Assembly: GCA_001443445.1 (NCBI GenBank)
Contig: LDXN01000026.1
Coordinates: forward strand, 1 to 37,988
Reading direction: 5' to 3'
DNA length: 37,988 bases
Source: Candidatus Dadabacteria bacterium CSP1-2
GTDB taxonomy: Bacteria > Desulfobacterota_D > UBA1144 > Nemesobacterales > CSP1-2
Positions within the stretch are counted from its first letter, which is position 1. Each line of letters begins with the position of its first letter. Below the pieces are notes generated by a model. The model was not told the DNA's origin and did no database searches. It worked only from the letters and a program-made list of their open reading frames with translations. Made by a program: the position numbers and the translations under genes. Positions 4,952 to 29,158 of this stretch are shown here, one piece after another.

Positions 4952-5329
4952 ATGATTAGACCTAGTAAGTCGCTTATAGCTTTGGGAATAGGTGTGTTCT
5001 TGCTATCTATCTCCGTTACTTTTGGAGAGACTAAGGATAGGAAAGAAGTTACGATCAAAGGTCGGGTTATAGACCCGGTTTGTTTGATAACCATGAACAT
5101 GAAAGGAGAGGGACACAGAGAATGTGCTCTTAATTGTGCTAAGGCTGGAGAGGACTTGGCACTCATGGATGAAAAAGGAAAAATCTATCCTATCCTTCCG
5201 GAGAAAGCTGTTACAAATCCTAATCAACCTGTTCTCGATTATGTTGAGAAAACAGTCACGGTTAAAGGAACACTTATCGAAAGTGGTGGGGTTAGTTATA
5301 TCATGATTAAAGAGGTTAAAGGTAGTTAA
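4952..5329 (+). CDS. Exported protein with conserved Cys cluster, efflux locus 1
   Basis: This 125-aa protein has a signal peptide (hydrophobic stretch 8-22, cleavage near TFGET) and a mature domain carrying DPVC44, H55, C58 and C62 (HRECALNCAKAGEDLALMD). The rest reads as a beta-rich fold, ending in VTVKGTLIESGGVSYIMIKEV, which resembles an OB-like strand pattern. Proteins of this sort occur in bacterial heavy-metal loci. The Cys/His set could bind a soft metal ion in the periplasm, but the family is not characterised as far as I can tell. The start has an AGGAGG site. It sits 39 nt after the lipoprotein and 32 nt before the helical protein, so all three are probably co-transcribed. Confidence 0.68.
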   Translation: MIRPSKSLIALGIGVFLLSISVTFGETKDRKEVTIKGRVIDPVCLITMNMKGEGHRECALNCAKAGEDLALMDEKGKIYPILPEKAVTNPNQPVLDYVEKTVTVKGTLIESGGVSYIMIKEVKGS

Positions 5330-5361
5330 TCAAAATTTGATCAGATAAGGAGGTGATAAAT

Positions 5362-5724
5362 ATGAAAAGGATATTACCGCTAGCAATAGCTTTCGTAGTA
5401 CCCATTTTGCTTTTCTCTTTCTTAGGAGTGTTTCCTGGAAGTGCTTCTGAGGAAGAAGATGTTGACAAAATGATAGAGACTGCCACAACCCCTGAGGATC
5501 ATATAAAGATTGCAGAGTATTATGAAAAACAAGCCAAGAAAATGGAGGAAAAGGCAAGGTTGCATGGCACCTTGGCTGATTCGTACAAGAATAGAGGTAA
5601 GCCTTTTTCTGGACTTGCTAAACACTGCTCTGATCTTTCAAAGAAGTATATGGAAGCTGCTAAAGACTATAAGACTATGGCGATGGAACATATGAAGATG
5701 GCTCAGGATATGCAAAAGCAGTAG
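5362..5724 (+). CDS. Exported helical ~120-aa protein, paralogue 1 of 4
   Basis: This 120-aa protein starts at ATG 5362, after GGAGGTG with good spacing (an upstream in-frame GTG at 5353 lies inside the ribosome binding site). It has a signal peptide ending near GSAS. The mature part is all-helical and charged: TATTPEDHIKIAEYYEKQA, then LADSYKNRGKP, then AKHCSDLSKKYMEAAKDYK, and a C-terminal AQDMQKQ. Paralogues lie at 13424, 16172 and 28726. The single Cys and the His-Lys/Met-rich tail (MAMEHMKMAQDM) recall small periplasmic metal or stress helical bundles, but no known family is claimed. It is encoded inside the efflux operon, 125 nt before tolC, with a hairpin between. Confidence 0.75.
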   Translation: MKRILPLAIAFVVPILLFSFLGVFPGSASEEEDVDKMIETATTPEDHIKIAEYYEKQAKKMEEKARLHGTLADSYKNRGKPFSGLAKHCSDLSKKYMEAAKDYKTMAMEHMKMAQDMQKQ

Positions 5725-5731
5725 CAATGGC

Positions 5732-5769
5732 TTCCCCAGGTGTGGAAGAAACCTCTCCTGCCTGGGGAA
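5732..5769 (+). terminator. Hairpin after helical paralogue 1
   Basis: TTCCCCAGG (5732-5740) pairs perfectly with CCTGGGGAA (5761-5769) around an inner GGA/TCC stem. There is no clear T-run after it. It lies between the helical gene and tolC, so it may attenuate the operon or stabilise the upstream mRNA rather than end transcription. The same structure follows the other three paralogues. Confidence 0.5.
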
Positions 5770-5849
5770 AAGCCTATAACATTTATTCTGCATAAGATTT
5801 ACGCGTGTTGTGAAAAGCTTTGAGTGGATTTCTATAAGGAGGTGTAAAG

Positions 5850-7100
5850 ATGAGACTCGTTCTAGCATTAATAATAGTCTCAATTGGGCTTAGTGCTTTT
5901 GCCGATGAGACTACGCCCCTTAAATCCCTTGTCGAAGAAGCCTTGGAGAAAAACCCTGAGATACTGAGAGCAAAAGCCGAGTGGGAAGCAGCTACTAAGC
6001 GTCCCTCTCAAGCAGGTTCCCTTCCCGACCCAATAGTTGGAGTTGGTTGGAGAAATGTAAGATTTGATCGTATAACCCTTACCGAAGACCCAAATAGTAT
6101 GGTTACGTTCTCACTCTCACAGGAATTTCCCTTTCCAGGAAAGCTTTCCCTTAGAGAAAAAGTAGCTCAAGAGGAAGCGCAGGCTCAGGAAAAATTGTAT
6201 GAAGCTACTTTAAGAAGGGTGATAGCAGATCTTAAAGAAGCCTATTACAACTGGTTCTTAGTTGATAAGTCCATAGAAATTACTCTTAAAAATAAAGACC
6301 TTCTTGAAAAATTTCTAAAAGTTGCTGAGGCGAAATACGCTGTAGGGAAAGGAATACAGCAGGATGTGTTAAAAGCTCAGGTGGAGGTATCAAGATTTAT
6401 TGAACAGCTTCAGCTTCTTGAAGAAAGAAGGGGAATTGTAGAAGCCAGAATAAGAAGCATATTAAATCGTCCACCTGATTCTCCACTTGTAAAGCCGGAG
6501 GTTGTAGAGAAGTCTCCCTTCATTCTAACAGCGGAGGAGCTTTATAAGCTTACTAAAGAAAAAGCTCCCCTTCTTAAGGTGAAGGAGAATCTTATTGATA
6601 GACAAGAAGAGGCCTTAAAGCTTGCCAAGAGGGAGTACTATCCTGACTTTGCTTTAGGGGTTGCCCCTGCCGTAATGGGGATGGAAAGTGGTGGGGTGGA
6701 AGGTGCCTGGGAGGTAACACTTGGGGTAAAAGTGCCGCTCTATTTTTACCGCAAACAAAGGTTTGGAGTTCAGGAGGCGGTTTCACAGCTTCAGGCGGCG
6801 CGGGAAGATTACACAAGCACAAACCAATCCTTATTTTTTAACGTTAAAGATCAATACCTGGTTGCTAAGACGTCGGAGAATCTTCTCAAGCTTTTTCAAG
6901 AAGGTATAATTCCACAGGCTGCTTCATCACTTGAGTCCGCAATCACAGGGTATCAAGTTGGGAATATAGACTTTCTTACGCTCCTGAACAATCTTGTAAC
7001 TCTTTTTAATTTTGAAATCACATATTATACGTATCTTACGAACTATCAGACAGCACTCGCAAGAATTGAAGAAGTTGTTGACATGCCTTTAATTAAGTGA
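5850..7100 (+). CDS. TolC-family outer-membrane efflux protein, locus 1
   Basis: This 416-aa protein has a signal peptide (MRLVLALIIVSIGLSAFAD) and two OEP repeats. The first holds the LKSLVEEALEKNPEILRAKAEWEAA helix region and RPSQAGSLPDP, followed by a coiled-coil hairpin. The second begins near LTAEELYKLTKEKAPLLKVKE. It is the CusC/CzcC-type outer-membrane channel of an RND metal pump. The ribosome binding site AAGGAGGTG is close to the ATG. No N-terminal lipobox is seen, unlike E. coli CusC. It is followed 35 nt later by the adaptor gene. Channel assembly with the adaptor and pump encoded next is expected from the family. Confidence 0.88.
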   Translation: MRLVLALIIVSIGLSAFADETTPLKSLVEEALEKNPEILRAKAEWEAATKRPSQAGSLPDPIVGVGWRNVRFDRITLTEDPNSMVTFSLSQEFPFPGKLSLREKVAQEEAQAQEKLYEATLRRVIADLKEAYYNWFLVDKSIEITLKNKDLLEKFLKVAEAKYAVGKGIQQDVLKAQVEVSRFIEQLQLLEERRGIVEARIRSILNRPPDSPLVKPEVVEKSPFILTAEELYKLTKEKAPLLKVKENLIDRQEEALKLAKREYYPDFALGVAPAVMGMESGGVEGAWEVTLGVKVPLYFYRKQRFGVQEAVSQLQAAREDYTSTNQSLFFNVKDQYLVAKTSENLLKLFQEGIIPQAASSLESAITGYQVGNIDFLTLLNNLVTLFNFEITYYTYLTNYQTALARIEEVVDMPLIK

Positions 7101-7135
7101 ACTTTGTAAGTAATAAGGCTCAGGAGGTTTAAGAA

Positions 7136-8761
7136 ATGAAAAAAACAGGTTTGAGTAAAGTATTAAAGCTCGGTGCGCTAGGGGTTTTAGTTCTTATTGT
7201 ATTGGTATTTACCTTTTTATATATGTCGAAGACCGAGCTAAATGGGGAAACCAATCAAGGAAAAGGCATGGAGAGTGCTGCTCCAAAGGAGATGCTTATG
7301 GGTAATCAGGGAGTGGAAGAAGAAACAGAGCACGAAGGGATGAAGATGGAAGAGGAGAAAGGAATAGAAACTCCGCAGAGCCCTGAGGGATTTACAGGAG
7401 TTCAGATAACCCCTGAAAAACAGCAGCTTATAGGGGTTAAGACTGATGAAGCGGCTACAAGGAAACTTATAAGGGATATTAGAACAGTTGGGATAATTGA
7501 GGCTGATGAGACAAAGATTGCACGGGTTAGTATAAAATTCAGTGGGTGGATAAAGGATATGTTTGTGGATTATGTGGGGAAATACGTAAAGCGCGGGGAA
7601 CCGCTCTTTACAGTTTATAGCCCCGAGCTTGTCTCTACTGAAGAAGAATACCTTCTTGCCCTAAAGGCACAGGACTCATTTGGAAAAAGCTCATTTCCGG
7701 AAATATCTTCAAGCGCAAAATCCCTACTTGAGGCTACGCGTAGAAGGCTACTTCTCTGGGACATTCCGGAAAGCGAGATACAAAGAATTGAGAAAACAGG
7801 AAAGCCTCTTAAATATCTTACTCTTTACTCACCTATAAGTGGCTATGTCACAAAGCGTGAAGCCTTTCCAGAAAAGATGATTGTGCCCAATGACGTTGTG
7901 TTTGAGATTGTGGATCTATCAACCGTGTGGCTTCTTGCAGACATCTATGAATATGAGCTTCCACTAGTTAAAGAGGGACAGGAAGCGACCATCACTCTTT
8001 CTTACTACCCGGAAGAGGTTTTCCATGGAAAGGTTACCTACGTTTACCCCACCCTAGAGACAAAAACCAGAACAGTAAAAGCGAGGTTTGAATTTGGGAA
8101 TGAGGATATAAAACTAAAGCCGGGTATGTATGCCAATGTGGAATTAAAGGTTCCTCTTGGAGAGAGCCTCTCTGTATCAGAGGATTCCGTCATTGATACA
8201 GGAGAGAAACAAATCGTATTTGTTGCAATGGGAGACGGCTACTTCGAACCCAGAGAAGTTAAAGTCGGACGTAAAGCCGAGGGGTACTATGAAGTTTTAG
8301 ATGGGGTAAGAGAAGGTGAAAAGGTTGTAAGAAGTGCTACCTTCCTTGTAGATTCCGAAAGCCGTCTTAAGGCAGCGCTAGAAAGTTTTGGTATGCCTGG
8401 ACACGAAGGAACGGAGCCTGTTTCCGAAGCTCCAAAAGCAGATCCAAAGGAAGTCAACATCTCCTTCTCAACAGATGGTGAATTCCCCAATGTAGGTGAC
8501 AACACCTTTAAAATCACTGTGACTGATATGAATGGGGATCCTATAAAAGACGCTAAAGTAGATATTCTGCTCCATATGCCTGGTATGCCCTCTATGGGAA
8601 TGCCTGCTATGAATATCCCGGCTATAGGAAAGCCTGTTAAGGATGGTTTATATGTGGCAGAAGTCAATATTCCCATGGGTGGGCAATGGCATGTAAGGGT
8701 TACTGTAACAAGACCCGGAAAACCTTCTGTCTCAAGCGTCTTTGAGATTAATGCAAGTTAA
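7136..8761 (+). CDS. cusB: CusB-type RND periplasmic adaptor with C-terminal YtkA/FixH-like domain
   Basis: This 541-aa membrane-fusion protein has an N-terminal anchor (about residues 12-32). A Met/His/Glu-rich stretch follows (MESAAPKEMLMGNQ, EHEGMKMEEE) that could bind Cu(I) or Ag(I), then a CusB-like core: a beta-barrel and lipoyl half around IKDMFVDYVGKYVKRGEPLF, a short helical hairpin, and YSPISGYVTKREA. After residue ~430 there is an extra domain (FPNVGDNTFKITVTDMNGDP, then a Met-Pro-Gly-rich LLHMPGMPSMGMPAM) resembling YtkA/FixH-like immunoglobulin folds. This makes it longer than classical CusB (~400 aa). In the Cus system the adaptor hands metal to the pump. An AGGAGG site precedes it, and cusA begins 14 nt after its stop. 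Confidence 0.88.
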   Translation: MKKTGLSKVLKLGALGVLVLIVLVFTFLYMSKTELNGETNQGKGMESAAPKEMLMGNQGVEEETEHEGMKMEEEKGIETPQSPEGFTGVQITPEKQQLIGVKTDEAATRKLIRDIRTVGIIEADETKIARVSIKFSGWIKDMFVDYVGKYVKRGEPLFTVYSPELVSTEEEYLLALKAQDSFGKSSFPEISSSAKSLLEATRRRLLLWDIPESEIQRIEKTGKPLKYLTLYSPISGYVTKREAFPEKMIVPNDVVFEIVDLSTVWLLADIYEYELPLVKEGQEATITLSYYPEEVFHGKVTYVYPTLETKTRTVKARFEFGNEDIKLKPGMYANVELKVPLGESLSVSEDSVIDTGEKQIVFVAMGDGYFEPREVKVGRKAEGYYEVLDGVREGEKVVRSATFLVDSESRLKAALESFGMPGHEGTEPVSEAPKADPKEVNISFSTDGEFPNVGDNTFKITVTDMNGDPIKDAKVDILLHMPGMPSMGMPAMNIPAIGKPVKDGLYVAEVNIPMGGQWHVRVTVTRPGKPSVSSVFEINAS

Positions 8762-8775
8762 AGGAGTAAGAGCTT

Positions 8776-11700
8776 ATGATTAATAGGATTATCGAATTTT
8801 GCGCCCATAATAGATTCATCGTGTTCCTCTTTATCAGTATGGCCATATTCGCCGGACTCTACTCGATGAAAAATATCACGCTCGACGCCATTCCTGATCT
8901 CTCGGACACGCAGGTAATAATCTACTCACGCTGGGATCGTAGCCCCGACATCATGGAAGATCAGGTCACCTACCCGATTATCACCGCCCTACTCGGTGTG
9001 CCCAGAGTAAAGGATATTCGCGGCTTTTCCGACTTTGGCTTTTCTTACGTCTATGTCATCTTCGAGGATGGAACAGATATCTATTGGGCGCGGTCGCGCA
9101 CATTGGAATATCTGAGCAATATCCTGCCGAGGCTCCCTGAAGGAGTGAAGGTGGAACTCGCACGCGACGAGACAGCCGTGGGCTGGGTGTTCCAGTACGC
9201 ACTGGTGGATACCACCGGGAAATACGACCTAGCGCAACTGCGGACGCTACAGGATTGGTATCTCCGGTATTACATCCAGGCTGTTCCGGGCGTTGCGGAG
9301 GTAGCACCCGTTGGCGGCTTTGTCCGTCAGTACCAGGTGAACCTCGATCCGAACGCGTTGCTGGCTTACAAGATTCCGCTGGATAAGGTGATTCAGGCTA
9401 TCAGAGAGGGAAATAACGATGTGGGGGGACGGCTAGTGGAGTTTACTGGCCGAGAATACATGGTCAGGGGTCGCGGGTATATCCGCTCGGTAGCTGACGT
9501 TGAGAACATTGTAATCAGCACAAATATGGAAACCGGTACGCCGATTCTAGTAAAGCATCTTGGCACGGCGGCGTTGGGTCCGGACATTCGGCGAGGGATT
9601 GCTGAGCTAGATGGAAAAGGTGATGTAGTGGGTGCTATTGTGATCATGCGCTATGGCGAAAATGCGTTAAAGGTCATCAATCGAGTTAAGGCTAAATTGG
9701 CCGAGATCGAACCCTCACTGCCTCCGGGTGTAAAGATTGTTACGGCTTACGATCGTGCAGATCTAATTGAGCGTTCGATTGAAACACTGAAAGGCACGCT
9801 CATCGAGGAAATGGCTATTGTGAGTCTAGTGATCCTCATCTTCCTTTGGCACATTCCAAGTGCCATAATTCCGATAATCACTATTCCTATCGTAATAATC
9901 ATCTCCTTCCTTCCCATGTACTGGATGAAGCTCACGGCCAATATTATGTCGCTTGGCGGCATCGCCATAGCCATTGGAGCAATGGTGGACGCATCCATTG
10001 TCCTGGTTGAGCAACTGCATAAGAAGCTCGAACGCTGGGAGGCAGAGGGACGGCCGGGCGATTTCAAAGATGTCGTCATCAGCGCGGTCAAGGAAGTTGG
10101 TGGGCCGAGCTTCTTCGCGCTGCTTGTGATCGCCATCGCGTTCATGCCGGTCTTCACACTGGAAGCCCAGGAGGGGCGGCTCTTCAAGCCACTGGCGTTT
10201 ACAAAGAATTTCTCTATGGCGATCGCCGCCGTGCTGGCAATCACGCTTGTTCCCGCAATTATAATGCTTGTCATTCGCAGGAAGGAATTTAACTTTCGTC
10301 CCCGTTTGCTCCGTAAGCTTGCTAATGCCATCCTCGTTGGAAAGATCCACAGCGAGGAGAAACATCCGATCAGCCGTCCGCTGATGAGGATGTATCATCC
10401 GGTGGTGGAATTTGTCCTGCGACATCAATGGGCAACGATCACCGGAGCGGTTCTCGTTGTGTTGCTTACAATTCCGATCTTTTTCCGGTTAGGGTCGGAA
10501 TTCATGCCGCCGCTTGATGAAGGTGTGCTGCTCTATATGCCGACAACGTTGCCAGGCATCTCCGTGACCGAAGCGCAAAAACTCCTTCAGGTGCAGGATA
10601 AGATTCTGAAATCCTTTCCCGAAGTGGAGCGGGTATTCGGCAAAGCAGGGAGGGCGGAAACCGCCACCGATCCGGCCCCCTTTTCGATGATGGAGACGGT
10701 GGTTGCCCTTAAACCACCGTCTGAATGGCCGAAGGTACCGCGCTGGTATTCCTCTTGGGCACCAGAGTGGTTACAAAATATATTGCGTCGCTTCTGGCCC
10801 GATCATAAGAGCACACAGGAACTGATCTACGGGCCTGGTGGATTAAATGAAGCTCTGCAACTTCCCGGCGTAGTCAACGCCTGGACGATGCCTATCAAGG
10901 CCCGCGTGGACATGCTTACAACGGGTGTGCGAACCCCCGTGGGCATCAAGATCCTTGGCTCAGATTTGAATAAAATTCAAGAAATTGGTCAGCATATTGA
11001 AATGGTGCTCAAAGATGTGCCTGGCACAACAAGTATCTTTGCCGAACGCACGGCAGGCGGCTATTTCCTGGATTTCGCTCTCAAGCGCGAAGAACTGGCT
11101 CGCTACGGCTTCACGATTGGACAGGCAGAAATGGCTATCATGTCAGCCATAGGCGGTGAAAATATCACCACAACAGTCGAGGGTCGGGAGCGTTATCCAG
11201 TCAACGTTCGTTACCTGCGCGATTACCGCAGCACTGTGGATCGGCTCAGGCGGGTCTTGGTTCCAACCATGGACGGGGCGCAGATTCCGATGACTCAAAT
11301 CGCTGACATTAAGCTGCTTTACGGCCCCAGCATGATCCGTGATGAAAATGGTCGCTTGAGTGGCTATGTCTATGTGGATGTCTCCGGACGCGATATCGGC
11401 AGTTATGTGACAGAGGCAAAAAAAGCCGTGAGAGAGAAGGTGAAACTGCCGCCAGGCTATACGCTCGTCTGGAGTGGGCAGTATGAGTATATGCAGCGGG
11501 TTGCAAAAAGACTGCTAACCGTGGTGCCGATTACGATCTTTATCATCTTCGTGTTGCTCTACTTCAACACCGGTTCGGTAGCCAAGACGCTGATCATTTT
11601 CCTGGCTGTGCCGTTCTCGGCTGTCGGCGCGATTTGGTTTCTCTATCTCCTGGGCTATAACACAAGCATTGCCGTATGGGTTGGATTGATTGCGCTCATG

Positions 11701-12051
11701 GGCGTGGATGCAGAGACAGGTGTGTTCATGTTGCTTTATCTGGATCTCGCCTATTACGAAATGCGCGCTAAAGGCTTGATGAAAACGAAGGAGCAATTAC
11801 GTGAGGCGATTGTCCACGGAGCAGTTAAGCGACTGCGACCGAAAGTCATGACGGTAGCCGTGATGTTCATGGGTCTAGTTCCCATCATGTGGTCAACCGG
11901 CGCTGGCGCGGATGTAATGAAGCGTATCGCCGCACCGATGATCGGCGGCATCTTCACGTCGTTTATCCTGGAACTGGTGGTCTATCCGGCTATTTACTGG
12001 ATCTGGCGCTGGTATTTTCATGTGAGGAAGGAGGTAAGGTTGAGCACATAG
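8776..12051 (+). CDS. cusA: CusA-type heavy-metal RND efflux pump, GC-richer than its surroundings
   Basis: This 1091-aa inner-membrane RND transporter is full length. It shows TM1 after a short N-tail, LDAIPDLSDTQVI, the TM4 proton-relay segment AIGAMVDASIVLVEQ, and the C-terminal TM block GYNTSIAVWVG with GVDAETGV. Methionines at M588 (LLYMPTTLPG), M638/639 (FSMMET) and M713 (VDMLTTG) fall in the motifs that hold the three-Met Cu(I)/Ag(I) site of E. coli CusA, so monovalent copper or silver export is likely. From about 8820 the base and codon use turns clearly GC-richer than in the adjacent cusB and tolC, while the first ~40 bp look native. Together with the cusA remnant at 15008 this suggests allele replacement. 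An AGGAG site precedes the ATG. Confidence 0.9.
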   Translation: MINRIIEFCAHNRFIVFLFISMAIFAGLYSMKNITLDAIPDLSDTQVIIYSRWDRSPDIMEDQVTYPIITALLGVPRVKDIRGFSDFGFSYVYVIFEDGTDIYWARSRTLEYLSNILPRLPEGVKVELARDETAVGWVFQYALVDTTGKYDLAQLRTLQDWYLRYYIQAVPGVAEVAPVGGFVRQYQVNLDPNALLAYKIPLDKVIQAIREGNNDVGGRLVEFTGREYMVRGRGYIRSVADVENIVISTNMETGTPILVKHLGTAALGPDIRRGIAELDGKGDVVGAIVIMRYGENALKVINRVKAKLAEIEPSLPPGVKIVTAYDRADLIERSIETLKGTLIEEMAIVSLVILIFLWHIPSAIIPIITIPIVIIISFLPMYWMKLTANIMSLGGIAIAIGAMVDASIVLVEQLHKKLERWEAEGRPGDFKDVVISAVKEVGGPSFFALLVIAIAFMPVFTLEAQEGRLFKPLAFTKNFSMAIAAVLAITLVPAIIMLVIRRKEFNFRPRLLRKLANAILVGKIHSEEKHPISRPLMRMYHPVVEFVLRHQWATITGAVLVVLLTIPIFFRLGSEFMPPLDEGVLLYMPTTLPGISVTEAQKLLQVQDKILKSFPEVERVFGKAGRAETATDPAPFSMMETVVALKPPSEWPKVPRWYSSWAPEWLQNILRRFWPDHKSTQELIYGPGGLNEALQLPGVVNAWTMPIKARVDMLTTGVRTPVGIKILGSDLNKIQEIGQHIEMVLKDVPGTTSIFAERTAGGYFLDFALKREELARYGFTIGQAEMAIMSAIGGENITTTVEGRERYPVNVRYLRDYRSTVDRLRRVLVPTMDGAQIPMTQIADIKLLYGPSMIRDENGRLSGYVYVDVSGRDIGSYVTEAKKAVREKVKLPPGYTLVWSGQYEYMQRVAKRLLTVVPITIFIIFVLLYFNTGSVAKTLIIFLAVPFSAVGAIWFLYLLGYNTSIAVWVGLIALMGVDAETGVFMLLYLDLAYYEMRAKGLMKTKEQLREAIVHGAVKRLRPKVMTVAVMFMGLVPIMWSTGAGADVMKRIAAPMIGGIFTSFILELVVYPAIYWIWRWYFHVRKEVRLST

Positions 12052-13202: not shown

Positions 13203-13423
13203 TTTATTTCGTCTTTAGATAGGTATTTAATAAGGAGGCAAATTTTAGTCGATGAAAATAATGAACATCAAAAAATGAAAAAGAAATGAGCTTAGTCCTT
13301 CAAGGCAAGCCCTATCTACTTCTGCTCCAATGCTTGTAGGGGGAAGTTTGATAAGAATCCTAAAAATATTTTGAAAAAGATGGACACAAGGATTGAACAT
13401 TTATAAAAAAGGAGGTGATAGAG

Positions 13424-13786
13424 ATGAAAAAATTATTACCGCTTGTAACAGCTTTGATAGCACCCCTTCTGTTTTTATCTTTAGTAGGGGTGGTTCCCTG
13501 TAGTGCTTCTGAGGAGGAAGAGAGTAGGAAACTTATGGAGACTGCCACAACCCCCGAGGATCACATCAAGGTTGCAGACTATTATGAACAGCAAGCTTTA
13601 AGAATGGAGGAAGAGGCGAAGTTCCACTCCTCCCTGGCTGATTCGTACAAGAGTAGGGGTAAGCCTCTACTTGGGCTTGCTAAACACTGCGCGGATCTTT
13701 CCAAAAGGTATAAGGAAGCTGCAGAGGATTATAAGGCTATGGCATTCTTACACAAAAAGATAGCTCAGGATATGCAAAAGCAGTAA
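13424..13786 (+). CDS. Exported helical ~120-aa protein, paralogue 2 of 4
   Basis: This 120-aa protein has the same architecture as the copy at 5362: signal peptide (KKLLPLVTALIAPLLFLSLV), then TATTPEDHIKVADYYEQQA, LADSYKSRGKPLLGLAKHC and AQDMQKQ. The ATG at 13424 follows AAGGAGGTG; an in-frame GTG at 13415 overlaps that site and is not the start. Codons from 13613 through the stop and five bases beyond are identical to the copy at 28915-29093 (179 bp without a mismatch), whereas the 5' halves differ. That points to recent gene conversion or recombination. It lies between galT and a PhaC-like gene, 222 nt after galT. The function is unknown. Confidence 0.75.
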   Translation: MKKLLPLVTALIAPLLFLSLVGVVPCSASEEEESRKLMETATTPEDHIKVADYYEQQALRMEEEAKFHSSLADSYKSRGKPLLGLAKHCADLSKRYKEAAEDYKAMAFLHKKIAQDMQKQ

Positions 13787-13793
13787 CAAATAA

Positions 13794-13831
13794 TTCCCAG
13801 GCATGGAGGAGTGGTCCTCCTTGTCTGGGAA
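13794..13831 (+). terminator. Hairpin after helical paralogue 2
   Basis: TTCCCAG (13794-13800) pairs with CTGGGAA (13825-13831). GGAGGA (13805-13810) pairs with TCCTCC (13815-13820) around a GTGG loop. The bases in between (GCAT against TTGT) also pair except for one U-U, giving an almost continuous 17-bp stem. No strong T-run follows. It is the clearest member of the four-copy hairpin set. Confidence 0.6.
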
Positions 13832-15009: not shown

Positions 15010-15457
15010 ATTTCCAACTATACTTGTTGGCAGTATCTGGCTTATGTATCTTCTCGGTTACAACATGAGTATAGCAGTCTGGGTAGGAATTATCGCAGTC
15101 GCAGGGCTTGCAGCTCAAACAGGAGTAGTTATGATAATTTATCTTGACAATGCTTATGAAAAGCGGATAAAAGAAGGAAGGATGAACACCTGGAACGATT
15201 TGGCTGAGGCAATAGATGAGGGTGCTGTGCAGAGGGTAAGACCCAAGATGATGACTGTGATGACAATGATTCTGGGACTCCTTCCACTTCTTTGGAGTCA
15301 AGGCGCTGGAGCCGATGTAATTAAGCGAATCGCAGCCCCAATGGTTGGAGGGCTTATCACATCAACCATTCTTACGCTTCTTATAATCCCTGCAATATAC
15401 GCGATATGGAAGGGCAGGGGTTTGCAACAACATAGGGAGGGAAAAGAGAATGGATAA
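15008..15457 (+). pseudogene. C-terminal remnant of a second cusA-type RND pump gene
   Basis: Reading from 15008, directly at the stop codon of the PhaC-like gene, the frame gives FPTILVGSIWLMYLLGYN and continues through the last transmembrane block of a CusA-type pump to a stop at 15457. That is about 149 residues of the usual ~1030-1090. The first ATG in frame is at 15044, but nothing suggests a functional start. Matching segments in the intact pump (IWFLYLLGYNTSIAVWVG; GAGADVMKRIAAPM) show the homology. Its AT-rich codon use is like that of the neighbouring tolC and cusB. The proton-relay Glu seen as DAETGV in the intact pump reads AAQTGV here. The simplest reading is the tail of the original cusA, separated from its operon. 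Confidence 0.85.
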
Positions 15458-16171: not shown

Positions 16172-16531
16172 ATGAAAAAAATATTACAGTTAAGCATAAC
16201 TTTGATAGCTTCTATTATTCTTTTCTCTGAAATAAAAGAAGTCTTCGGCATGGCTTCTGAGGAGGAGATTATTATACTTATACAGACAGCTACTTCCCCA
16301 GAGGATCACCTAAAGATTGCAGATTACTTTGACAAGCAGGCTAAAAAGGACGAGGAAAAGGCACGTTTTTATGCCTCTATGTCTGACTCATACGCAAATA
16401 GGGATAAGCCATTACTTGGACTTGCAAAGTATTACTCAGATCAATCAAAGAAGTACATGGAAATGGCTCAAGGATATAAAAACTTGGCAACCGAGCATAG
16501 GAAAATGGCTGATCAAGAGATGCAAAGATAA
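16172..16531 (+). CDS. Exported helical ~120-aa protein, paralogue 3 of 4
   Basis: This is the most divergent of the four paralogues (119 aa from ATG 16172, after AAAGGAG; an adjacent GTG at 16169 is possible). Signal peptide KKILQLSITLIASIILFS, cleavage near GMAS. The mature helices keep TATSPEDHLKIADYFDKQA, MSDSYANRDKPLLGLAKYY and the C-terminal KMADQEMQR. The Cys found in the other three copies (AKHC) is Tyr here (AKYY), so that Cys is not essential to the family. It probably forms its own short transcript, ending at the hairpin 16539-16578. Confidence 0.72.
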   Translation: MKKILQLSITLIASIILFSEIKEVFGMASEEEIIILIQTATSPEDHLKIADYFDKQAKKDEEKARFYASMSDSYANRDKPLLGLAKYYSDQSKKYMEMAQGYKNLATEHRKMADQEMQR

Positions 16532-16538
16532 TTAACTT

Positions 16539-16578
16539 CCTATTCTGGCACGGAGGGGTTCCTCCATGATAGGGTAGG
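16539..16578 (+). terminator. Hairpin after helical paralogue 3
   Basis: CCTATTCT (16539-16546) pairs with AGGGTAGG (16571-16578) through Watson-Crick and G-T pairs, with inner GGAGG (16552-16556) against CCTCC (16561-16565). The sequence differs from the other three copies, but the fold and the GGAGG/CCTCC core are kept, including compensatory changes in the outer stem. Confidence 0.5.
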
Positions 16579-16585
16579 GTCAACT

Positions 16586-21181: not shown

Positions 21182-21331
21182 ATGGGGACAATAGATAAGT
21201 GTAAAAAAATACTTTGGGAAATCGGTATTATACATAGTCTGTTGATTTATCTTTTGCCATTTCTATTAAAAGCTGCACAGAATAACGTAAAGGGGTTTTA
21301 CCTTATGCTAAAGAGGTTAGAGGTTAAATGA
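21182..21331 (+). CDS. 49-aa membrane ORF translationally coupled to tolC of locus 2
   Basis: ATG 21182 follows CAGGAGGT with good spacing and encodes 49 residues: a basic N-terminus (MGTIDKCKKILWEIG), one hydrophobic segment (IIHSLLIYLLPFLLKAA) and a basic tail. Its TGA overlaps the ATG of tolC (ATGA, 4 bp), so the two are probably translationally coupled. The 5' part of this ORF and its ribosome binding site match the start of the lipoprotein gene at 4472 (GGIxI/GIxI and KKI segments), but it diverges afterwards. It may be a decayed or alternative version of that gene that now serves as a coupling leader. Confidence 0.6.
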   Translation: MGTIDKCKKILWEIGIIHSLLIYLLPFLLKAAQNNVKGFYLMLKRLEVK

Positions 21332-22650
21332 GAACATTATTTGCTACACTCGTCATAGTTTTTATAGGATTTTCAACCGATTTTTTTGCCTCTGTCTCAG
21401 ATGCACAAGAACCGATTCAAAGTTTAACGATTGATCAGGCAGTGGATATAGCCCTGAGGGAGAATCGTGATTTAAGGGCAGCACGAATACAGGTGGAAGA
21501 AGCCAGAGGGAGGTTGACGCAGGCTGGAGTTTTTCCTAATCCAGCTCTGGAATCTGATTTTATTTTTGACTCTATTTTTGCCAATGAAGGTGAGCGAGCA
21601 TTTTCAGCGGGTATTTCTCAACCGCTTCCCTTAAGCGGTCGTATTGGTGCTCAAAAAAGGGTAGCCCGTGTAGACATTAAAAGAACGTTTGCCGACCTTG
21701 CTGATCTGGAGCGTGGATTAGTAAGAGACGTCCGTCGTGTTTTTACTGAGCTTTTAGCAATTAATGAACAAATTAAACTACAAGATACTTTGATTAGTCT
21801 AAATAACGAGCTAGTTGGAGCAATCAAGGCTGGTATTAAAGAGGGACTCGCTTCAGAAAAAGACCTTAATGCTGTGGCCATAGCTCTACAACAAGCAAGA
21901 CAGGAAAAGGAAGTTCTCATAGCTCAGAGAAAAAGTAAGATTCTTGAATTAAATAAGCTTTTGGGCAAGCCATCAACCTTTTCCTTTTCACCAGGGGGAA
22001 AACTTGAATACGAAGCCGCAAGGGATTTAAACGAGTACAATATTGAAAAAGCACTCTCACAAAGACCTGATTTAAGATTTGCTGAGCTTAATATAGAACT
22101 TGCAAGGGCGGATTCAGGTTTGGCTAAAGCTTTGCGCTTTGAGGATATAACAGCAGGGGTTTTCTACGAAAATGATCGTGGGGTTTTTGATATCGCACAA
22201 GATGAAATTATTGATGCAGATAATCTTATTGGTTTTAAGTTGACTATTCCTCTACCTTTCTTCGACCGTAAGCAGGGCCTTATTGCTGAGACTCGTGCCC
22301 GTGAAGGAAGAGCAAAAGAAAGCGTCGAGGCCTTAAAGCTAGAGATCGGTCAGGAGGTAAATGACGCACTAAACCGAGTTACTACACTATCGGCTCTTTT
22401 AGAGACTTACCAGTCGGGAATTTTGAAAACGGCGGAGGACAATGTAAAGCTGGTTGAAGGTGGCTACAAACAGGGGTTGGTTGGAATTGCTGAGGTTATA
22501 CAGTCCCGCCAGCAGTTTGCCACTCTGAAATCATCTTATATTAATACGGTTCGTGATTATCAGCTTGCGCTAAATGATCTTCAAATAGCTACTGGAACTT
22601 ACCCAAGTACGATTTCTTTTAATAAAACGGAAGAGGATGAAAACAAATGA
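21328..22650 (+). CDS. TolC-family outer-membrane efflux protein, locus 2
   Basis: This 440-aa protein has a signal peptide (RTLFATLVIVFIGFSTDFFAS), two OEP repeats starting at SLTIDQAVDIALRENRDLRAA and near EYNIEKALSQRPDLRFAELN, and the conserved QAGVFPNPALE. It is CzcC/CusC type, the outer-membrane exit of the RND pump encoded downstream. Its ATG overlaps the stop of the 49-aa ORF. Its own stop overlaps the next ATG by 4 bp (ATGA), showing tight operon packing. Confidence 0.88.
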   Translation: MRTLFATLVIVFIGFSTDFFASVSDAQEPIQSLTIDQAVDIALRENRDLRAARIQVEEARGRLTQAGVFPNPALESDFIFDSIFANEGERAFSAGISQPLPLSGRIGAQKRVARVDIKRTFADLADLERGLVRDVRRVFTELLAINEQIKLQDTLISLNNELVGAIKAGIKEGLASEKDLNAVAIALQQARQEKEVLIAQRKSKILELNKLLGKPSTFSFSPGGKLEYEAARDLNEYNIEKALSQRPDLRFAELNIELARADSGLAKALRFEDITAGVFYENDRGVFDIAQDEIIDADNLIGFKLTIPLPFFDRKQGLIAETRAREGRAKESVEALKLEIGQEVNDALNRVTTLSALLETYQSGILKTAEDNVKLVEGGYKQGLVGIAEVIQSRQQFATLKSSYINTVRDYQLALNDLQIATGTYPSTISFNKTEEDENK

Positions 22651-23642
22651 AAATTGAAAGAAAGAAGGTTCTTCTCTCACTCTTTGCTATTATCTTCGTT
22701 TTGATTCTCACCATAACAGTTTCTCAATTTCTTTACGGCTGCAGTGAAGAACATCGTAGTGAAAAAGATGAGGAAAAGAAGTTGCCCATTTCTTCCTCTA
22801 TTAATAGTCAAGCTAGTGTAGAGCTTTCAGAGATTGCTCAAAAAAGCATAGGTCTTAAAGTAGTTGAAGCTGATATAAGACAGGTTGAGGAAGTGCTACT
22901 AATTAACGGCATAGTAAAGCCTGAGCCTAATAGGGTTGCCGAGGTAAGTACAAGAGCAGAAGGACGTATTGAGGAACTTTATGTAAACCTCGGAGACCGA
23001 GTTAAAAAAGGGCAAAGGCTTGCTTCTATTCTACCTCGTCAAATTGGTAACCCACCGCCTCTTGTATCAATTACGGCCCCACTCTCAGGCATTGTTGTAG
23101 AAAGAAATGTTGTACTTCATAGCACGGTAGAGCCTAATAAGACTCTTTTTCGGATTGCGGATTTATCGAAGGTAATTGTAGAGGGTGATGTATTTGAAAG
23201 CGACGTTTCTAAAGTAAAACTCGGTCAGGATACACGTATAAAGCTGGACGCTTATCCCGACAAGGTTTTTACTGGAAAAGTAACATTTGTTGCAAGCCAG
23301 CTTGATCCCATGAAGCGTACTCTGCACCTCTGGGTTTCGATAGATAACAAGGAAGGGTTACTTAAGCCTGAGCTTTTTGCCAGGGTTGCTCTTGTAGTTA
23401 AGCACAGTAAAGAGGTCTTAACTGTACCTGTGGAGGCAATCATTGATGATGGCGCAGAGAAATTCGTATTCGTAAAAAACGGAAACAAGTTCGTCCGTCA
23501 GGATGTTGCTACCGGAGTGAGTGATGACCGCTACGTTGAAATTACCGACGGTCTTTACCCCGGAGACCAGGTAGTTACAGATGGCAATCGGCAAATTTAT
23601 ACAAAGTGGTTATTCAGTGGTGGATTAGAGGAGAGAGAATAA
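22647..23642 (+). CDS. RND periplasmic adaptor (CzcB/CusB family), locus 2
   Basis: This 331-aa membrane-fusion protein has an N-terminal hydrophobic segment with a likely lipobox (FLYGC), so it is probably a lipoprotein. The core shows a barrel/lipoyl entry (RAEGRIEELYVNLGDRVKKGQRL), ITAPLSGIVVERNV, FRIADLSKVIVEGDVFESD and the C-terminal DGLYPGDQVV. It is much shorter than the locus 1 adaptor: it lacks the Met/His-rich N-terminal stretch and the YtkA-like domain, which suggests a different cargo or delivery path. It overlaps tolC by 4 bp and is followed 3 nt later by the pump gene. Confidence 0.88.
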   Translation: MKIERKKVLLSLFAIIFVLILTITVSQFLYGCSEEHRSEKDEEKKLPISSSINSQASVELSEIAQKSIGLKVVEADIRQVEEVLLINGIVKPEPNRVAEVSTRAEGRIEELYVNLGDRVKKGQRLASILPRQIGNPPPLVSITAPLSGIVVERNVVLHSTVEPNKTLFRIADLSKVIVEGDVFESDVSKVKLGQDTRIKLDAYPDKVFTGKVTFVASQLDPMKRTLHLWVSIDNKEGLLKPELFARVALVVKHSKEVLTVPVEAIIDDGAEKFVFVKNGNKFVRQDVATGVSDDRYVEITDGLYPGDQVVTDGNRQIYTKWLFSGGLEERE

Positions 23643-23645
23643 TAG

Positions 23646-26600
23646 ATGTTTAACGCCATAATCAGGTGGTCACTAAATAACAAACTTTTGATCGTAGTAG
23701 CTACTATTATTTTCTTTGGCGCTTCTATATATCTTGTAACACAGATGCCTGTGGACGTTTTTCCTGAGTTTGCGCCGCCGCAGGTCGTAGTTCAAACTGA
23801 GGCGCCAGGACTCTCACCCGAGGACGTAGAGGCACTAATCACTTTTCCAATCGAGAGTGCGGTAAACGGTACACCCGGCATTGATACGGTTCGCTCATCA
23901 TCTTCTGTGGGTCTCTCAACTATAATTATTGTCTTTAAATGGGGCACCAATATCTATACCGCCCGTCAGCTTGTAAATGAGCGTATACAGTCGGTGCAGG
24001 ATCGGTTTCCTCCCGGAACAAAACCGCCTGCAATGCTTCCCGTTACCTCTGCTGTAGGCTGGCTGGTCAAATACAGCTTAACAAGCGACACGCTTTCACC
24101 GATGGAGCTCCGTACAATCTCAGACTGGCAAATCCGCCCTAGGATTCTTGCAATTGGAGGAGTAGCTTCCGTGGTCTCTATTGGAGGGGAAGTTAAGCAG
24201 TATCAAGTCCTTATTGACCCATTAAAGCTACGTGCATTTGATGTGAGTCTGGCTCAGGTAAAAGAGGCCGTAGAAAAATCAAACATAAATGTCCCGGGGG
24301 GTTTTCTATATCGAGGTGGTGCAGAGTTTGCCATCACAGGGGTTGGACGAATTACCACTCTGGATGACTTAAGAAGAACTGTGGTATCCGTTCATGACGG
24401 AACCCCTATTACCCTCAGCCAGTTGGTTGAAGTTAAGCTTGGTCCTGAGATAAAGCGTGGAGACGGTGCTTTTATGAATGAATCCGCCGTTATTGGCACG
24501 ATTTCAAAGGCTTATGGTGCCGATACCCTAACTACAACGTATAAGGTTGAAAAAGCCCTTGAGGAAATTAAGTCGAAGCTTCCCACGGGCGTCCAGATGG
24601 ACTATCACGTTTTCAGGCAAGCAGAGTTCATTGAATCCGCCATCAAAAATCTGAAAGATGCTCTCTGGCAGGGTGGGGTCATAGTAATGGTGATTCTCTT
24701 TCTATTCCTTTATAACTTCCGTGCCTCTTTTATCAGCCTTCTTGCTATGCCATTATCGCTTCTTGGGGGATTAATGGTTTTAAAAGCCTTTGGTATCGGG
24801 ATTAACGCGCTAACGCTGGGAGGACTTGCTATTGCCATAGGTATTGTGGTTGATGATGCGATCATAGATGTGGAAAACGTCTTTAGGAGACTGCGCCTTA
24901 ACCGTGCCTTACGCCATCCTGAACCTGTGCTTAGCGTTGTCTTTAAAGGTTCAACTGAGATCCGAAACTCTATAGTCTACGCTACATTTATTATCATCAT
25001 TGCTTTTTTCCCTGTGTTTTTGCTCTCTGGTCTTGAAGGAAGAATTTTTACCCCGCTTGGGATTGCATTCATAGCAAGTGTTCTTTGCTCATTACTTGTG
25101 GCTGTAACGACAACCCCTGTGCTTTGTTATTTGCTTCTTACACGTAAATATGAGAGGGAACATGAAAGGGAATTGGCTAAAGCAGGCGTGCCCTTACTAA
25201 AGCCGGCATCTGACTTTGGTAATCCGGGTAATTCCGGTTCAGATAATAGTGAAGACTCTAGTCACAAGGTAGAGAAAGAAAGTGCATTGGTGCGCTTTCT
25301 AAAAAGAATTTATGAACGCATCCTCCATCAGTCACTAAAGCGCTTTTATACAGTGATGGGTATTTCTCTCGTTCTGCTTATCGGTGCAATTGCTATGCTG
25401 CCATTCTTTGGTCGCTCATTCCTGCCGGAATTTCGTGAGGGCAACTTCATTATAGCTCTTAACACTCTGCCCGGAACGTCACTACAGGAATCAATGCGGC
25501 TTGGGTCAATAATCAGAGAAAATCTCAGTGATAAATCGAAATATCCAGAAATTGTCTCAGTAGCGCAGAGGGCGGGACGCTCTGAACTAGATGAAGATGC
25601 TCAGCCGCCCAATTTCAGCGAGTTTGACCTGACAATCGAGTATGGCAAGAGACCGGCTGATGATCTACTAGGTTCGATCCGCTCCGAACTAAAAGAAATC
25701 CCTGGGGTTGCAGTAAACATCGGCCAATTTATCTCACACAGGATGGATGAAATGCTTTCAGGCATCCGTGCACAGGTGGCTATTAAGATTTACGGTCCAG
25801 AGTTGGTGAAATTACGAACTCTTGGCAAACAGGTTAGAGACATTGTGGAGACAGTAAAAGGAGTTGAGGATTTACAATTAGAGCAGCAGATTGATGTTCC
25901 ACAGGTTGTCGTTAAATATGACCGTGAGAAAGCCGCCCGATACGGACTTAATGTTGGGGATTTAGCAGAGATCACTGAAACCTCATTAAACGGCACGGCT
26001 GTTTCCCAGGTATTAGAGGGACAAAAAACGTTCGACCTATTTATTCGACTTAATGAAGAATCAAGAAATAACATTGAGGCTACCAAGAACATCCTCATTG
26101 ATACTCCAATAGGGGCAAAGATTCCTCTTCGTGAGGTTGCCGATATACATATCGAAAATCGTCCCTATACGATAAACCGTGAACAAGTTCAACGTCGTAT
26201 AGTGGTTCAATTTAACGTTGCCAGTCGTGACCTGAATAGCGTCATTACCGAGGCTAAACAAAAAATTGAATCTCAGGTAAAACTACCTTCTTCGGATTAC
26301 TTTATTGAATACGGCGGTCAGTTTGAAAGCCAGCAGCGGGCGACAAAGGTTCTTACAATCTTCGGGATTGTTGCGATACTCGGAATTTTTATGATGCTCT
26401 ATCAAGCTTTCGGAAACGCACGTGAAGCCGCAATGGTAATGGTTAATCTTCCTCTTGCCCTTATCGGTAGTGTTTATGCTGTTTTTCTTACAGGAGGGGA
26501 ACTAAGTGTGCCTTCACTAATTGGTTTTATAGCTCTATTCGGAATTGCAACACGAAACGGAGTTATTCTCATAACGCATTACAGCCAATTGCGGGAGGGA

Positions 26601-26867
26601 AAAGGGCTGTCTCTACGTGATACTGTTATCCAGGGCTCATTAGACCGACTGAATCCAATTCTAATGACAGCCTCTGTTGCCGCGCTCGGTCTTATCCCGC
26701 TGCTTATTGGAGAGCCGACCGGTAAAGAAATTGAGAGACCACTGGCAATCGTGCTTCTTGGAGGTCTCTTTACCTCAACCTTTTTGAATCTGGTTGTTAT
26801 CCCAATATTATACAACAGGATTGAAGCTAGGCGTGAAAAAAAACAAATGGCGGAGGCAGAGACATAA
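23646..26867 (+). CDS. CusA/CzcA-family heavy-metal RND pump, locus 2
   Basis: This 1073-aa complete RND transporter has TM1 NKLLIVVATIIFFGASIYL, PVDVFPEFAPPQV, the TM4 proton relay AIGIVVDDAIIDVENVFRR, and a C-terminal block SLIGFIALFGIATRNGV. The positions that carry the three-Met Cu(I)/Ag(I) site in CusA are not Met here (FIIALNTLPG; NFSEFDLTI), so monovalent copper export by that route is doubtful. It belongs to a CzcA-like branch whose ion cannot be named from sequence. Residues ~517-550 form a hydrophilic loop (GNPGNSGSDNSEDSS) between the halves. A GAGAGAG site precedes it. Base composition is native-like, unlike the locus 1 pump. Confidence 0.9.
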   Translation: MFNAIIRWSLNNKLLIVVATIIFFGASIYLVTQMPVDVFPEFAPPQVVVQTEAPGLSPEDVEALITFPIESAVNGTPGIDTVRSSSSVGLSTIIIVFKWGTNIYTARQLVNERIQSVQDRFPPGTKPPAMLPVTSAVGWLVKYSLTSDTLSPMELRTISDWQIRPRILAIGGVASVVSIGGEVKQYQVLIDPLKLRAFDVSLAQVKEAVEKSNINVPGGFLYRGGAEFAITGVGRITTLDDLRRTVVSVHDGTPITLSQLVEVKLGPEIKRGDGAFMNESAVIGTISKAYGADTLTTTYKVEKALEEIKSKLPTGVQMDYHVFRQAEFIESAIKNLKDALWQGGVIVMVILFLFLYNFRASFISLLAMPLSLLGGLMVLKAFGIGINALTLGGLAIAIGIVVDDAIIDVENVFRRLRLNRALRHPEPVLSVVFKGSTEIRNSIVYATFIIIIAFFPVFLLSGLEGRIFTPLGIAFIASVLCSLLVAVTTTPVLCYLLLTRKYEREHERELAKAGVPLLKPASDFGNPGNSGSDNSEDSSHKVEKESALVRFLKRIYERILHQSLKRFYTVMGISLVLLIGAIAMLPFFGRSFLPEFREGNFIIALNTLPGTSLQESMRLGSIIRENLSDKSKYPEIVSVAQRAGRSELDEDAQPPNFSEFDLTIEYGKRPADDLLGSIRSELKEIPGVAVNIGQFISHRMDEMLSGIRAQVAIKIYGPELVKLRTLGKQVRDIVETVKGVEDLQLEQQIDVPQVVVKYDREKAARYGLNVGDLAEITETSLNGTAVSQVLEGQKTFDLFIRLNEESRNNIEATKNILIDTPIGAKIPLREVADIHIENRPYTINREQVQRRIVVQFNVASRDLNSVITEAKQKIESQVKLPSSDYFIEYGGQFESQQRATKVLTIFGIVAILGIFMMLYQAFGNAREAAMVMVNLPLALIGSVYAVFLTGGELSVPSLIGFIALFGIATRNGVILITHYSQLREGKGLSLRDTVIQGSLDRLNPILMTASVAALGLIPLLIGEPTGKEIERPLAIVLLGGLFTSTFLNLVVIPILYNRIEARREKKQMAEAET

Positions 26868-27511: not shown

Positions 27512-28084
27512 ATGAAGAAAGCTTTCTTTTTAATGACTTTATTGGGTGTATCTGCTCTACTTGTACAGATCTCCAATTCAAGTCAAACTGACTCAAACAC
27601 CATCCAGATTATAATTGGTGATTTTTACTTTAAACCAAAAACCATTCAACTCCGTGCAGGTCAGCAGGTAAAGATTGAACTTATTAATGAAGGAAAACTT
27701 GAACATGAATTCATGGTAGGCCGTGGATTAAAGACAGAGGAAGGCAAAGATGAAACACATAAAGGAATGCACGAAGCTAATGAAGAAAAGCAGGAAACAT
27801 CAAAAGGAGAACACGAACACCAAGGGGAAACGCACGCCCACAGTGGGATGTCCAAGGGTTTTGAGAAAGATTTTTTTGAAGGGGTTGAGGTAGCAGTCCA
27901 AACTGAGAAGGGAAGTGATTTCATGAAAGTCCCCAGCCACGGCAATATGGTAACATTGAAGCCTGAAGGAGAAGCTGCGCTCACCTTCAAAATACCGACT
28001 GATCGGAAGGGTGAGTGGCAGATGGCCTGTTTTGTACCCGGTCACTACGAGGCTAAGATGAAGGGAAAGATTATTATTAAGTAA
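27512..28084 (+). CDS. Exported cupredoxin with His-rich insert
   Basis: The 190-aa protein has a signal peptide (MKKAFFLMTLLGVSALLVQ) and a plastocyanin/azurin-like fold: IQIIIGDFYFKPKTIQLRAGQ, NEGKLEHEF, and MACFVPGHYEAKM. The type 1 copper ligands can be placed as H65, C173, H178 and M183. A ~50-residue insert (about 78-115) is rich in Glu, His and Lys (ETHKGMHEANEEK, GEHEHQGETHAHSGM) and should bind further metal ions. This makes it a likely periplasmic copper chaperone or electron carrier for the locus. An ATGGAGGTGAGG site precedes the start. It is co-directional, 86 nt after the previous gene. Confidence 0.85.
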   Translation: MKKAFFLMTLLGVSALLVQISNSSQTDSNTIQIIIGDFYFKPKTIQLRAGQQVKIELINEGKLEHEFMVGRGLKTEEGKDETHKGMHEANEEKQETSKGEHEHQGETHAHSGMSKGFEKDFFEGVEVAVQTEKGSDFMKVPSHGNMVTLKPEGEAALTFKIPTDRKGEWQMACFVPGHYEAKMKGKIIIK

Positions 28085-28150: not shown

Positions 28151-28699
28151 ATGAGAATATTAGCAAGTTCACTGGTTATTTTGATATGTATTGCTAACCT
28201 TTCTTTTGCTCAAGGCATGATGCAGCAAAGCGGAGGGCAGATGGGAATGAAGGGTGAAGGCATGATGGGCATGCAGGGTGGAATGATGGCGCATATGATG
28301 GGTGGAATGCATCCCATGATGTATAGCATGATGGTTCATCATGTTCTTATGAAAGCCAATACTCTTGATCTTACGGATACCCAGAAGAAAGAGTTAGCAA
28401 GTATTCAGGAGAAGTACCTTTACCCGATGATTCGTAAAGAAGCAGACTTTAAAATCTCTCACATGAAGATTATGGATATGTTACAAAACCCAAACTTTGA
28501 TGCTGCTAAGGTAAAGGCAGGAATTAAGGCATCGAATGAAATTAATCTTGAGATGGCAAACATGTTAATTGATGCACTTACAGCAATAAGAAAGGCTATC
28601 GGTGTAGAGAACTTTAAGAAGGCGGCGGAGATGATGTCTATGATGGGCGGCGGGATGAGGAAGGAGGGAACTATAGTAGAAGAAGAACACAAACATTAA
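28151..28699 (+). CDS. Met/His-rich Spy/CpxP/ZraP-like periplasmic protein
   Basis: The 182-aa protein has a signal peptide (RILASSLVILICIANLSFA). A very Met-rich N-terminal part follows (GMMQQSGGQMGMKGEGMMGM, AHMMGGMHPMMYSMM), then helices with the LTxxQ-type motif LDLTDTQKKELASIQEKY, and a C-terminus with MMSMMGGGM and EEEHKH. This matches the LTXXQ heavy-metal sensor/chaperone group (Spy, CpxP, ZraP). Met clusters favour Cu(I)/Ag(I) binding, His favours Cu(II)/Zn. A GAGAGGAGGT site precedes it. It is directly followed, 26 nt later, by helical paralogue 4. Confidence 0.82.
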   Translation: MRILASSLVILICIANLSFAQGMMQQSGGQMGMKGEGMMGMQGGMMAHMMGGMHPMMYSMMVHHVLMKANTLDLTDTQKKELASIQEKYLYPMIRKEADFKISHMKIMDMLQNPNFDAAKVKAGIKASNEINLEMANMLIDALTAIRKAIGVENFKKAAEMMSMMGGGMRKEGTIVEEEHKH

Positions 28700-28725
28700 G
28701 CTTTTATAATAAGGAGGTGATAAGT

Positions 28726-29088
28726 ATGAAAAGGATATTACCGCTTGTAACAGCTTTGATAGCACCCCTTCTGTTTCTATCTTTAGTAGGGGTGGTCGCC
28801 GGTAGTGCTTCTGAGGAGGAAGAGAGTAGGATACTTATAGAGACTGCCACAACCCCCGAGGATCACATCAAGATTGCAGAGTACTATGAAAAGCAAGCTG
28901 CGAATATGGAGGATGAGGCGAAGTTCCACTCCTCCCTGGCTGATTCGTACAAGAGTAGGGGTAAGCCTCTACTTGGGCTTGCTAAACACTGCGCGGATCT
29001 TTCCAAAAGGTATAAGGAAGCTGCAGAGGATTATAAGGCTATGGCATTCTTACACAAAAAGATAGCTCAGGATATGCAAAAGCAGTAA
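28726..29088 (+). CDS. Exported helical ~120-aa protein, paralogue 4 of 4
   Basis: The 120-aa protein starts at ATG 28726 after AAGGAGGTG. It has signal peptide RILPLVTALIAPLLFLSLV, cleavage near GSAS, then TATTPEDHIKIAEYYEKQA, LADSYKSRGKPLLGLAKHC and AQDMQKQ. Positions 28915-29093 are identical to 13613-13791 of paralogue 2, while the 5' half resembles both paralogue 1 and 2, giving a mosaic. It is the last gene of efflux locus 2, so two of the four copies belong to metal loci. A role in metal-stress protection of the periplasm is inference from that context. Confidence 0.75.
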   Translation: MKRILPLVTALIAPLLFLSLVGVVAGSASEEEESRILIETATTPEDHIKIAEYYEKQAANMEDEAKFHSSLADSYKSRGKPLLGLAKHCADLSKRYKEAAEDYKAMAFLHKKIAQDMQKQ

Positions 29089-29097
29089 CAAATGAGT

Positions 29098-29134
29098 TTT
29101 CCCAGGTACGGAGGAAACCCTCCTGCCTGGGAAA
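29098..29134 (+). terminator. Hairpin after helical paralogue 4
   Basis: TTTCCCAGG (29098-29106) pairs perfectly with CCTGGGAAA (29126-29134). Inside it GGAGG (29110-29114) pairs with CCTCC (29119-29123) around AAAC. No T-run follows. It probably marks the 3' end of the locus 2 transcript. Confidence 0.6.
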
Positions 29135-29158
29135 CTCTACGACACTTATTAAAGGGGT

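Follow-up and report, generated by a model that had tools for sequence, protein, structure and literature searches.

Small exported helical proteins encoded in four copies near metal-efflux loci of Candidatus Dadabacteria bacterium CSP1-2: candidate periplasmic metal-binding accessory proteins

What do the products of four similar genes, distributed among the metal-efflux loci of a single contig, contribute to their host? The window analysed here is the entire contig, i.e. 37,988 bases of a 2.48-Mb draft genome. A sequence-only reading had proposed four open reading frames of one family, starting at 5362, 13424, 16172 and 28726 and sharing motifs and a signal peptide, and this was borne out. 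The four frames are intact, start with ATG, contain no internal stop and are all encoded on the + strand (copy 1, 5362..5724, 120 aa; copy 2, 13424..13786, 120 aa; copy 3, 16172..16531, 119 aa; copy 4, 28726..29088, 120 aa). With copy 1 as the reference, identity was 66% for copy 2, 58% for copy 3 and 69% for copy 4. The copies carry the motif TAT[TS]PEDHxK[IV]A[ED]Y[YF] and a segment [LM][AS]DSYxxRxKP, and all four have a signal peptide, predicted as a hydrophobic signal-like segment at the N-terminus. The homologue search proposed for copy number and gene neighbourhood revealed exactly four copies in the whole genome, every one in the window, and contexts that are mostly metal-related. The four copies represent a real, conserved, metal-linked and uncharacterised family of exported proteins.

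Two metal-efflux loci, both on the + strand, determine the surroundings of the copies. The Cus-type locus comprises CusC-, CusB- and CusA-like genes (5850..12051); the Czc-type locus comprises CzcC-, CzcB- and CzcA-like genes (21328..26867), followed by genes for a cupredoxin-domain protein weakly like CopI (27512..28084) and an LTXXQ (Spy/CpxP-like) periplasmic protein (28151..28699). It had been stated that two copies lie inside or at the end of these loci. This describes copy 4, which closes the Czc-type locus immediately 3' of the LTXXQ gene and two genes downstream of the CopI-like gene, and has to be amended for copy 1, which precedes the Cus-type locus, and for copies 2 and 3, which lie between the loci, 1.4 and 4.1 kb beyond CusA. 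An end-to-end alignment of the window CusA with its E. coli counterpart places methionines opposite each other in an LLYM stretch, a stretch ending in M-ET and a DML stretch, the three of which hold the Cu(I)/Ag(I) ligands of the E. coli protein. The second pump (23646) belongs to the CusA/CzcA family. Because of the methionine alignment and the pump and cupredoxin neighbours, copper or silver appears most likely to be the metal for copy 1; for copy 4 this assignment is less certain.

Other genes near these loci were noted in passing. The Cus and the Czc locus are each preceded by the gene of a small exported protein (3942-4325 and 20649-21032); the two proteins are related and have the C-terminal sequence HPP[ED]LFL[SA]NSSFLL. 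They matched no family, and their relatives stand ahead of pump genes in other genomes. Directly before copy 1 lies the gene for a small exported protein with conserved Cys and Met residues (4952-5329; VCLITMNMKGEGHRECALNC), a type that also adjoins the family gene in two other regions (L033 and L036). The product of 4520-4912 weakly matched the Leptospira 'salt-regulated' family NF047442 (E 2e-5), which makes it the second Leptospira-named family with a weak match in this locus.

The association with metal pumps was evaluated across the phylum. Matches were obtained in 11 of 58 genomes, one of them marginal (G041), leaving 10 carriers with 21 full-length copies; a partial second match in genome G031 is outside this count. 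For 17 of the 21 copies, a CusA/CzcA-family gene scoring over the TIGR00914 curated cut-off is found no more than 5 kb away (binomial p below 1e-22, for a background roughly estimated at 3 to 5 such loci per genome). A pump over this cut-off was present in all 10 carrier genomes versus 17 of 48 non-carriers (Fisher p = 1.6e-4, which is optimistic because the genomes are related). Among the four more distant copies, one is at a contig break in a region syntenic with the Czc locus, two are near a P-type metal ATPase and the last is separated from a pump by 9.7 kb. Fifteen wider regions were read, and almost all copies were surrounded by genes for CusCBA/CzcCBA, LTXXQ proteins, cupredoxins, cytochromes c and P-type ATPases. 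As side observations, the cupredoxin gene of genome G005 appears as two adjacent open reading frames (L032:8771-9343; possible frameshift), and a CDF-like cation transporter gene absent from the window Czc locus stands between CzcC and CzcB in a sister species (L029:4710-5729).

Few genomes outside the Dadabacteria carry the family (3 of 395 in the phylum that includes G058), and a search across the order of that genome yielded no further genomes. Using copy 4 as tblastn query against 72,556 plasmids, we obtained four records, every one annotated 'hypothetical protein'. Remote relatives (28-35% identity) were found on three plasmids of Gamma- and Betaproteobacteria (Methylophaga, Methylobacter and Variovorax), where they sit in islands of Mer, Cus, P-type ATPase, DUF411 and Pco genes, and a remote relative in genome G207 lies between CusA and a YHS-bearing P-type ATPase. 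A weak relative in genome G311 has no metal genes nearby and also lacks H47, one of the conserved residues described below. The contexts are thus mostly related ones, and no solved structure matched the family; homologues confined to unrelated contexts, or a structural family of defined role, would have spoken against the sequence-only reading.

Three of the copies have orthologues at corresponding positions in the sister species (75% identical for copy 1, 82% for copy 3 and 91% for copy 4), whose assembly lacks copy 2. As these positions are shared, the duplications that gave rise to copies 1, 3 and 4 are old and predate the split of the two species, and the proposal that the family was amplified with the loci holds only in part. 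Copy 2 is of the copy-4 type: in the 3' half the two genes agree over 173 bases without a difference, and in the 5' half they are 90% identical, a pattern that fits recent duplication or gene conversion. Copy 3 is probably a diverged paralogue that has lost the second of the two candidate metal sites and the strong Shine-Dalgarno sequence considered below. A remnant of 137 aa from the C-terminus of a second CusA (15044..15457, +) has its closest match in the CusA of the sister species, to which it is 92% identical, versus 60% for the full-length window CusA (8776), and the ancestral CusA was for this reason probably replaced in the window genome. GalT, copy 2 and a PHB-depolymerase-like gene now lie in between. 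A separate conservation signal considered for copy 4 in its 3' half was set aside, as the contig as a whole ranges between 75 and 100% in its identity to the sister species. A stretch of approximately 1 kb inside an AMP-ligase gene (30400-31400, compared with L006) is 97-100% identical to the sister species versus approximately 90% elsewhere, possibly a recombination tract.

The structure prediction proposed by the sequence-only reading, which expected a helix bundle, was carried out with AlphaFold2 on 11 sequences. The model contains helices at residues 5-40, 44-78 and 83-119 (mean pLDDT 85.6), the latter two forming a confident antiparallel helical hairpin with a turn at 79-82 (pLDDT 93-98 across most of residues 41-120). 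A 3-4 pattern defines a heptad core at positions 47, 51, 54, 58, 61, 65, 68, 72, 75, 86, 89, 93, 96, 100, 103, 107, 110 and 114, in which Ala alternates with His, Tyr and Cys. These a/d positions are the most conserved ones (mean entropy 0.64 versus 1.65 bits elsewhere, p = 4e-6; 0.92-2.07 bits for alternative heptad registers). In an alignment of 25 sequences, H47, A51, A100 and H110 are invariant, as is A114 wherever present (24 of 25), and H68 and C89 are retained in 23, both being lost in copy 3 and its orthologue. The copy 3 type, which lacks H68, H88 and C89, persists in two species. H47 and H68 are separated by 21 residues, i.e. three heptads, as are C89 and H110, and by heptad counting, from which the distances are taken, H47 should lie opposite H110 and H68 opposite C89 one turn off. 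Polar core residues of this type point to metal sites more than to a bundle held together for purely structural reasons.

We compared the family with known proteins at the level of sequence, fold and context. Pfam and PDB sequence searches returned no natural relative, the best PDB sequence matches being designed coiled coils, and Foldseek returned no match at E up to 0.001 against the PDB and viral models; matches to Esx/WXG100 proteins were rejected as generic helical hairpins. The fungal protein Dld1 (PIIN_05872, PDB 5LOS) superimposed with an rmsd of 0.9 over 80 columns (TM 0.82 on target), which at E 0.46 is not significant, and this eukaryotic helical hairpin is a structural analogue only. 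Dld1 is described as a histidine- and alanine-rich metal protein in work cited in PMC8657640. Weak matches were found to two NCBIfam families of Leptospira without an assigned function, NF047526 (LIC_10421) and NF047569 (E 4e-7 to 2e-5). LIC_10421 is the nearest named family and itself uncharacterised, its gene product being listed as a hypothetical protein (PMC8638967). It resembles the present family in size, in its signal-like N-terminus and in a weak match over nearly the full length (from profile positions 6-13 to 109-110 of 111); however, the scores of 24.8-29.9 bits are far below the curated cut-off of 90.

Among proteins of metal resistance, SilE and PcoE, periplasmic Ag/Cu 'sponges', resemble the family as small exported proteins linked to a Cus/Sil-type efflux operon, a link also seen in the genomic context of the family. 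SilE is disordered when apo and folds upon Ag+ binding, with His and Met residues proposed as ligands (PMC5008109). In contrast, the model predicts a folded hairpin for the present family, with confident helices at 44-78 and 83-119 and with His and Cys in its core, and the single-sequence plasmid search with copy 4 recovered no SilE or PcoE record. CusF-type chaperones are small beta-barrels, whereas the family model is all-helical. Proteins of the Spy/CpxP/LTXXQ type share with the family a small all-helical periplasmic build, a link to metal or envelope stress and, in the case of copy 4, the neighbouring gene, but differ in sequence and in their conserved residues, and the Pfam search gave no match to PF07813 (LTXXQ/Spy) at E up to 1. 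By analogy the family may work like SilE/PcoE; membership in SilE/PcoE, Spy/CpxP or CusF is unsupported.

Among 36 window genes, ranked by pairing with a 16S 3' end assumed to be the usual bacterial sequence, the strongest Shine-Dalgarno was that of copy 1 (5347..5357, +), followed by those of copies 2 (13409..13419, +) and 4 (28711..28721, +), each reading AAGGAGGTGAT; copy 3 ranked 20th. A hairpin within about 10 nt of each gene had been noted, and predicted hairpins indeed start 4-7 nt past the stop codon in all four copies (5729..5774, between copy 1 and CusC; 13794..13831; 16538..16579; 29094..29137; all +). The median best-window folding energy was -23.0 kcal/mol for family genes versus -8.6 kcal/mol for 241 other open reading frames of the same loci (Mann-Whitney p = 3e-10), and -18 was reached by 15 of the 21 family genes versus 8% of the others, part of this excess being due to GC content (46% versus 38%). 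Across 13 stems, pairing holds in 95.8% of cells, and at five of the pairs both sides have changed; the 13 double-changed cells compare with a shuffled mean of 4.2, and 0 of 500 shuffles reached 13 (a control that ignores kinship). The arms, which come from 13 of the 21 members, were picked by eye and connected through a fixed linker, so this covariation supports, and does not prove, selection on the stem. Several members (the G002 copies, G004, G005b, G005d and G030a) lack a comparable stem. An Rfam search of the window gave no match, and a mobile or REP-like repeat was rejected, as the stem pattern tested occurs at only one other genome site.

For the hairpin alone, a plausible though less favoured explanation is a transcription terminator of a type lacking the U-run, the gene being a conventional last or single gene. 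The strong GC stem straight after the stop codon in most members would be expected of a terminator; against it, no U-run follows the family stems, the terminator scan listed none of them, and the stem of copy 1 lies between two same-strand genes 125 nt apart. The data rather suggest that the 3' stem is a stabilising or processing stem that raises expression of the family gene above that of its neighbours.

Which function accounts best for these properties? The suggestion of a periplasmic stress or metal protein is, apart from its amplification part, well supported by the context in several lineages and by the conserved core His and Cys. We hold it to be somewhat more likely than not that the family comprises abundant periplasmic accessory proteins of heavy-metal efflux loci, acting as buffers or chaperones that would bind soft metals, most likely Cu(I)/Ag(I). 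H47 with H110, and H68 with C89 (plus H88), approximately one turn apart across the helices, would make up two sites for soft metals, to which a second subunit might contribute if the protein dimerises as a four-helix bundle, and periplasmic metal would be held there for transfer to the CusCBA/CzcCBA pump or to a partner. The very strong Shine-Dalgarno sequences and the 3' stem without a U-run suggest that this part of the transcript is translated at a high rate and is more stable than the part with the downstream genes. Several points weigh against the buffer or chaperone function: the core His and Tyr could be structural, the copy 3 type has been kept in two species despite its lack of H68, H88 and C89, and the G311 relative, which also lacks H47, is outside a metal context. 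More tentatively, the family could constitute a new class of soft-metal chaperone, widespread and periplasmic, in the form of an Ala/His 'Alacoil' hairpin whose two cross-helix sites (His-His and His-Cys) lie three heptads apart, made in excess over the pump by means of an exceptional Shine-Dalgarno and a conserved 3' stabilising stem.

A Spy/CpxP-like, ATP-independent periplasmic chaperone of metal or envelope stress, which would hold unfolded proteins on its helical surface and in which the core His would be structural, seems rather unlikely. Such a protein would be all-helical with a charged surface and probably abundant, as the family is, and an LTXXQ/Spy-like gene adjoins a family copy in the window (copy 4) and in G001 (a genome of the same genus), G005, G034 and G030b; yet Pfam gave no LTXXQ match for the family, conservation is highest at polar His and Cys of the core and not at the surface, and H68 and C89 were lost together. 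It is still less probable that the proteins are dedicated partners of the pump, or CnrX-like sensors that serve a metal-sensing kinase, instead of a bulk buffer: the linkage to pump genes and a copy beside a kinase/regulator pair (region L009) would agree with this, but several copies per genome and very strong Shine-Dalgarno sequences fit an abundant protein, the window loci have no adjacent two-component system, and copy 2 adjoins metabolic genes. Neutral hitch-hiking on mobile metal islands, to which plasmid carriage and varied positions might point, is largely excluded by the invariance of core residues over large divergence and by the places kept in the sister species, and is very improbable.

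Few proteins (CusF, SilE and CopK) are known to handle copper, silver and other metals in the periplasm before these reach the CusCBA and CzcCBA pumps. If the proteins described here, which we favour as metal-binding accessory proteins, do handle metal, they would add a further family, shared by Dadabacteria and by proteobacterial plasmids that also carry Mer, Cus and Pco genes, and would fill a missing part of annotated metal islands. The family genes in such islands are currently annotated merely as hypothetical, and their products are small enough for direct testing.
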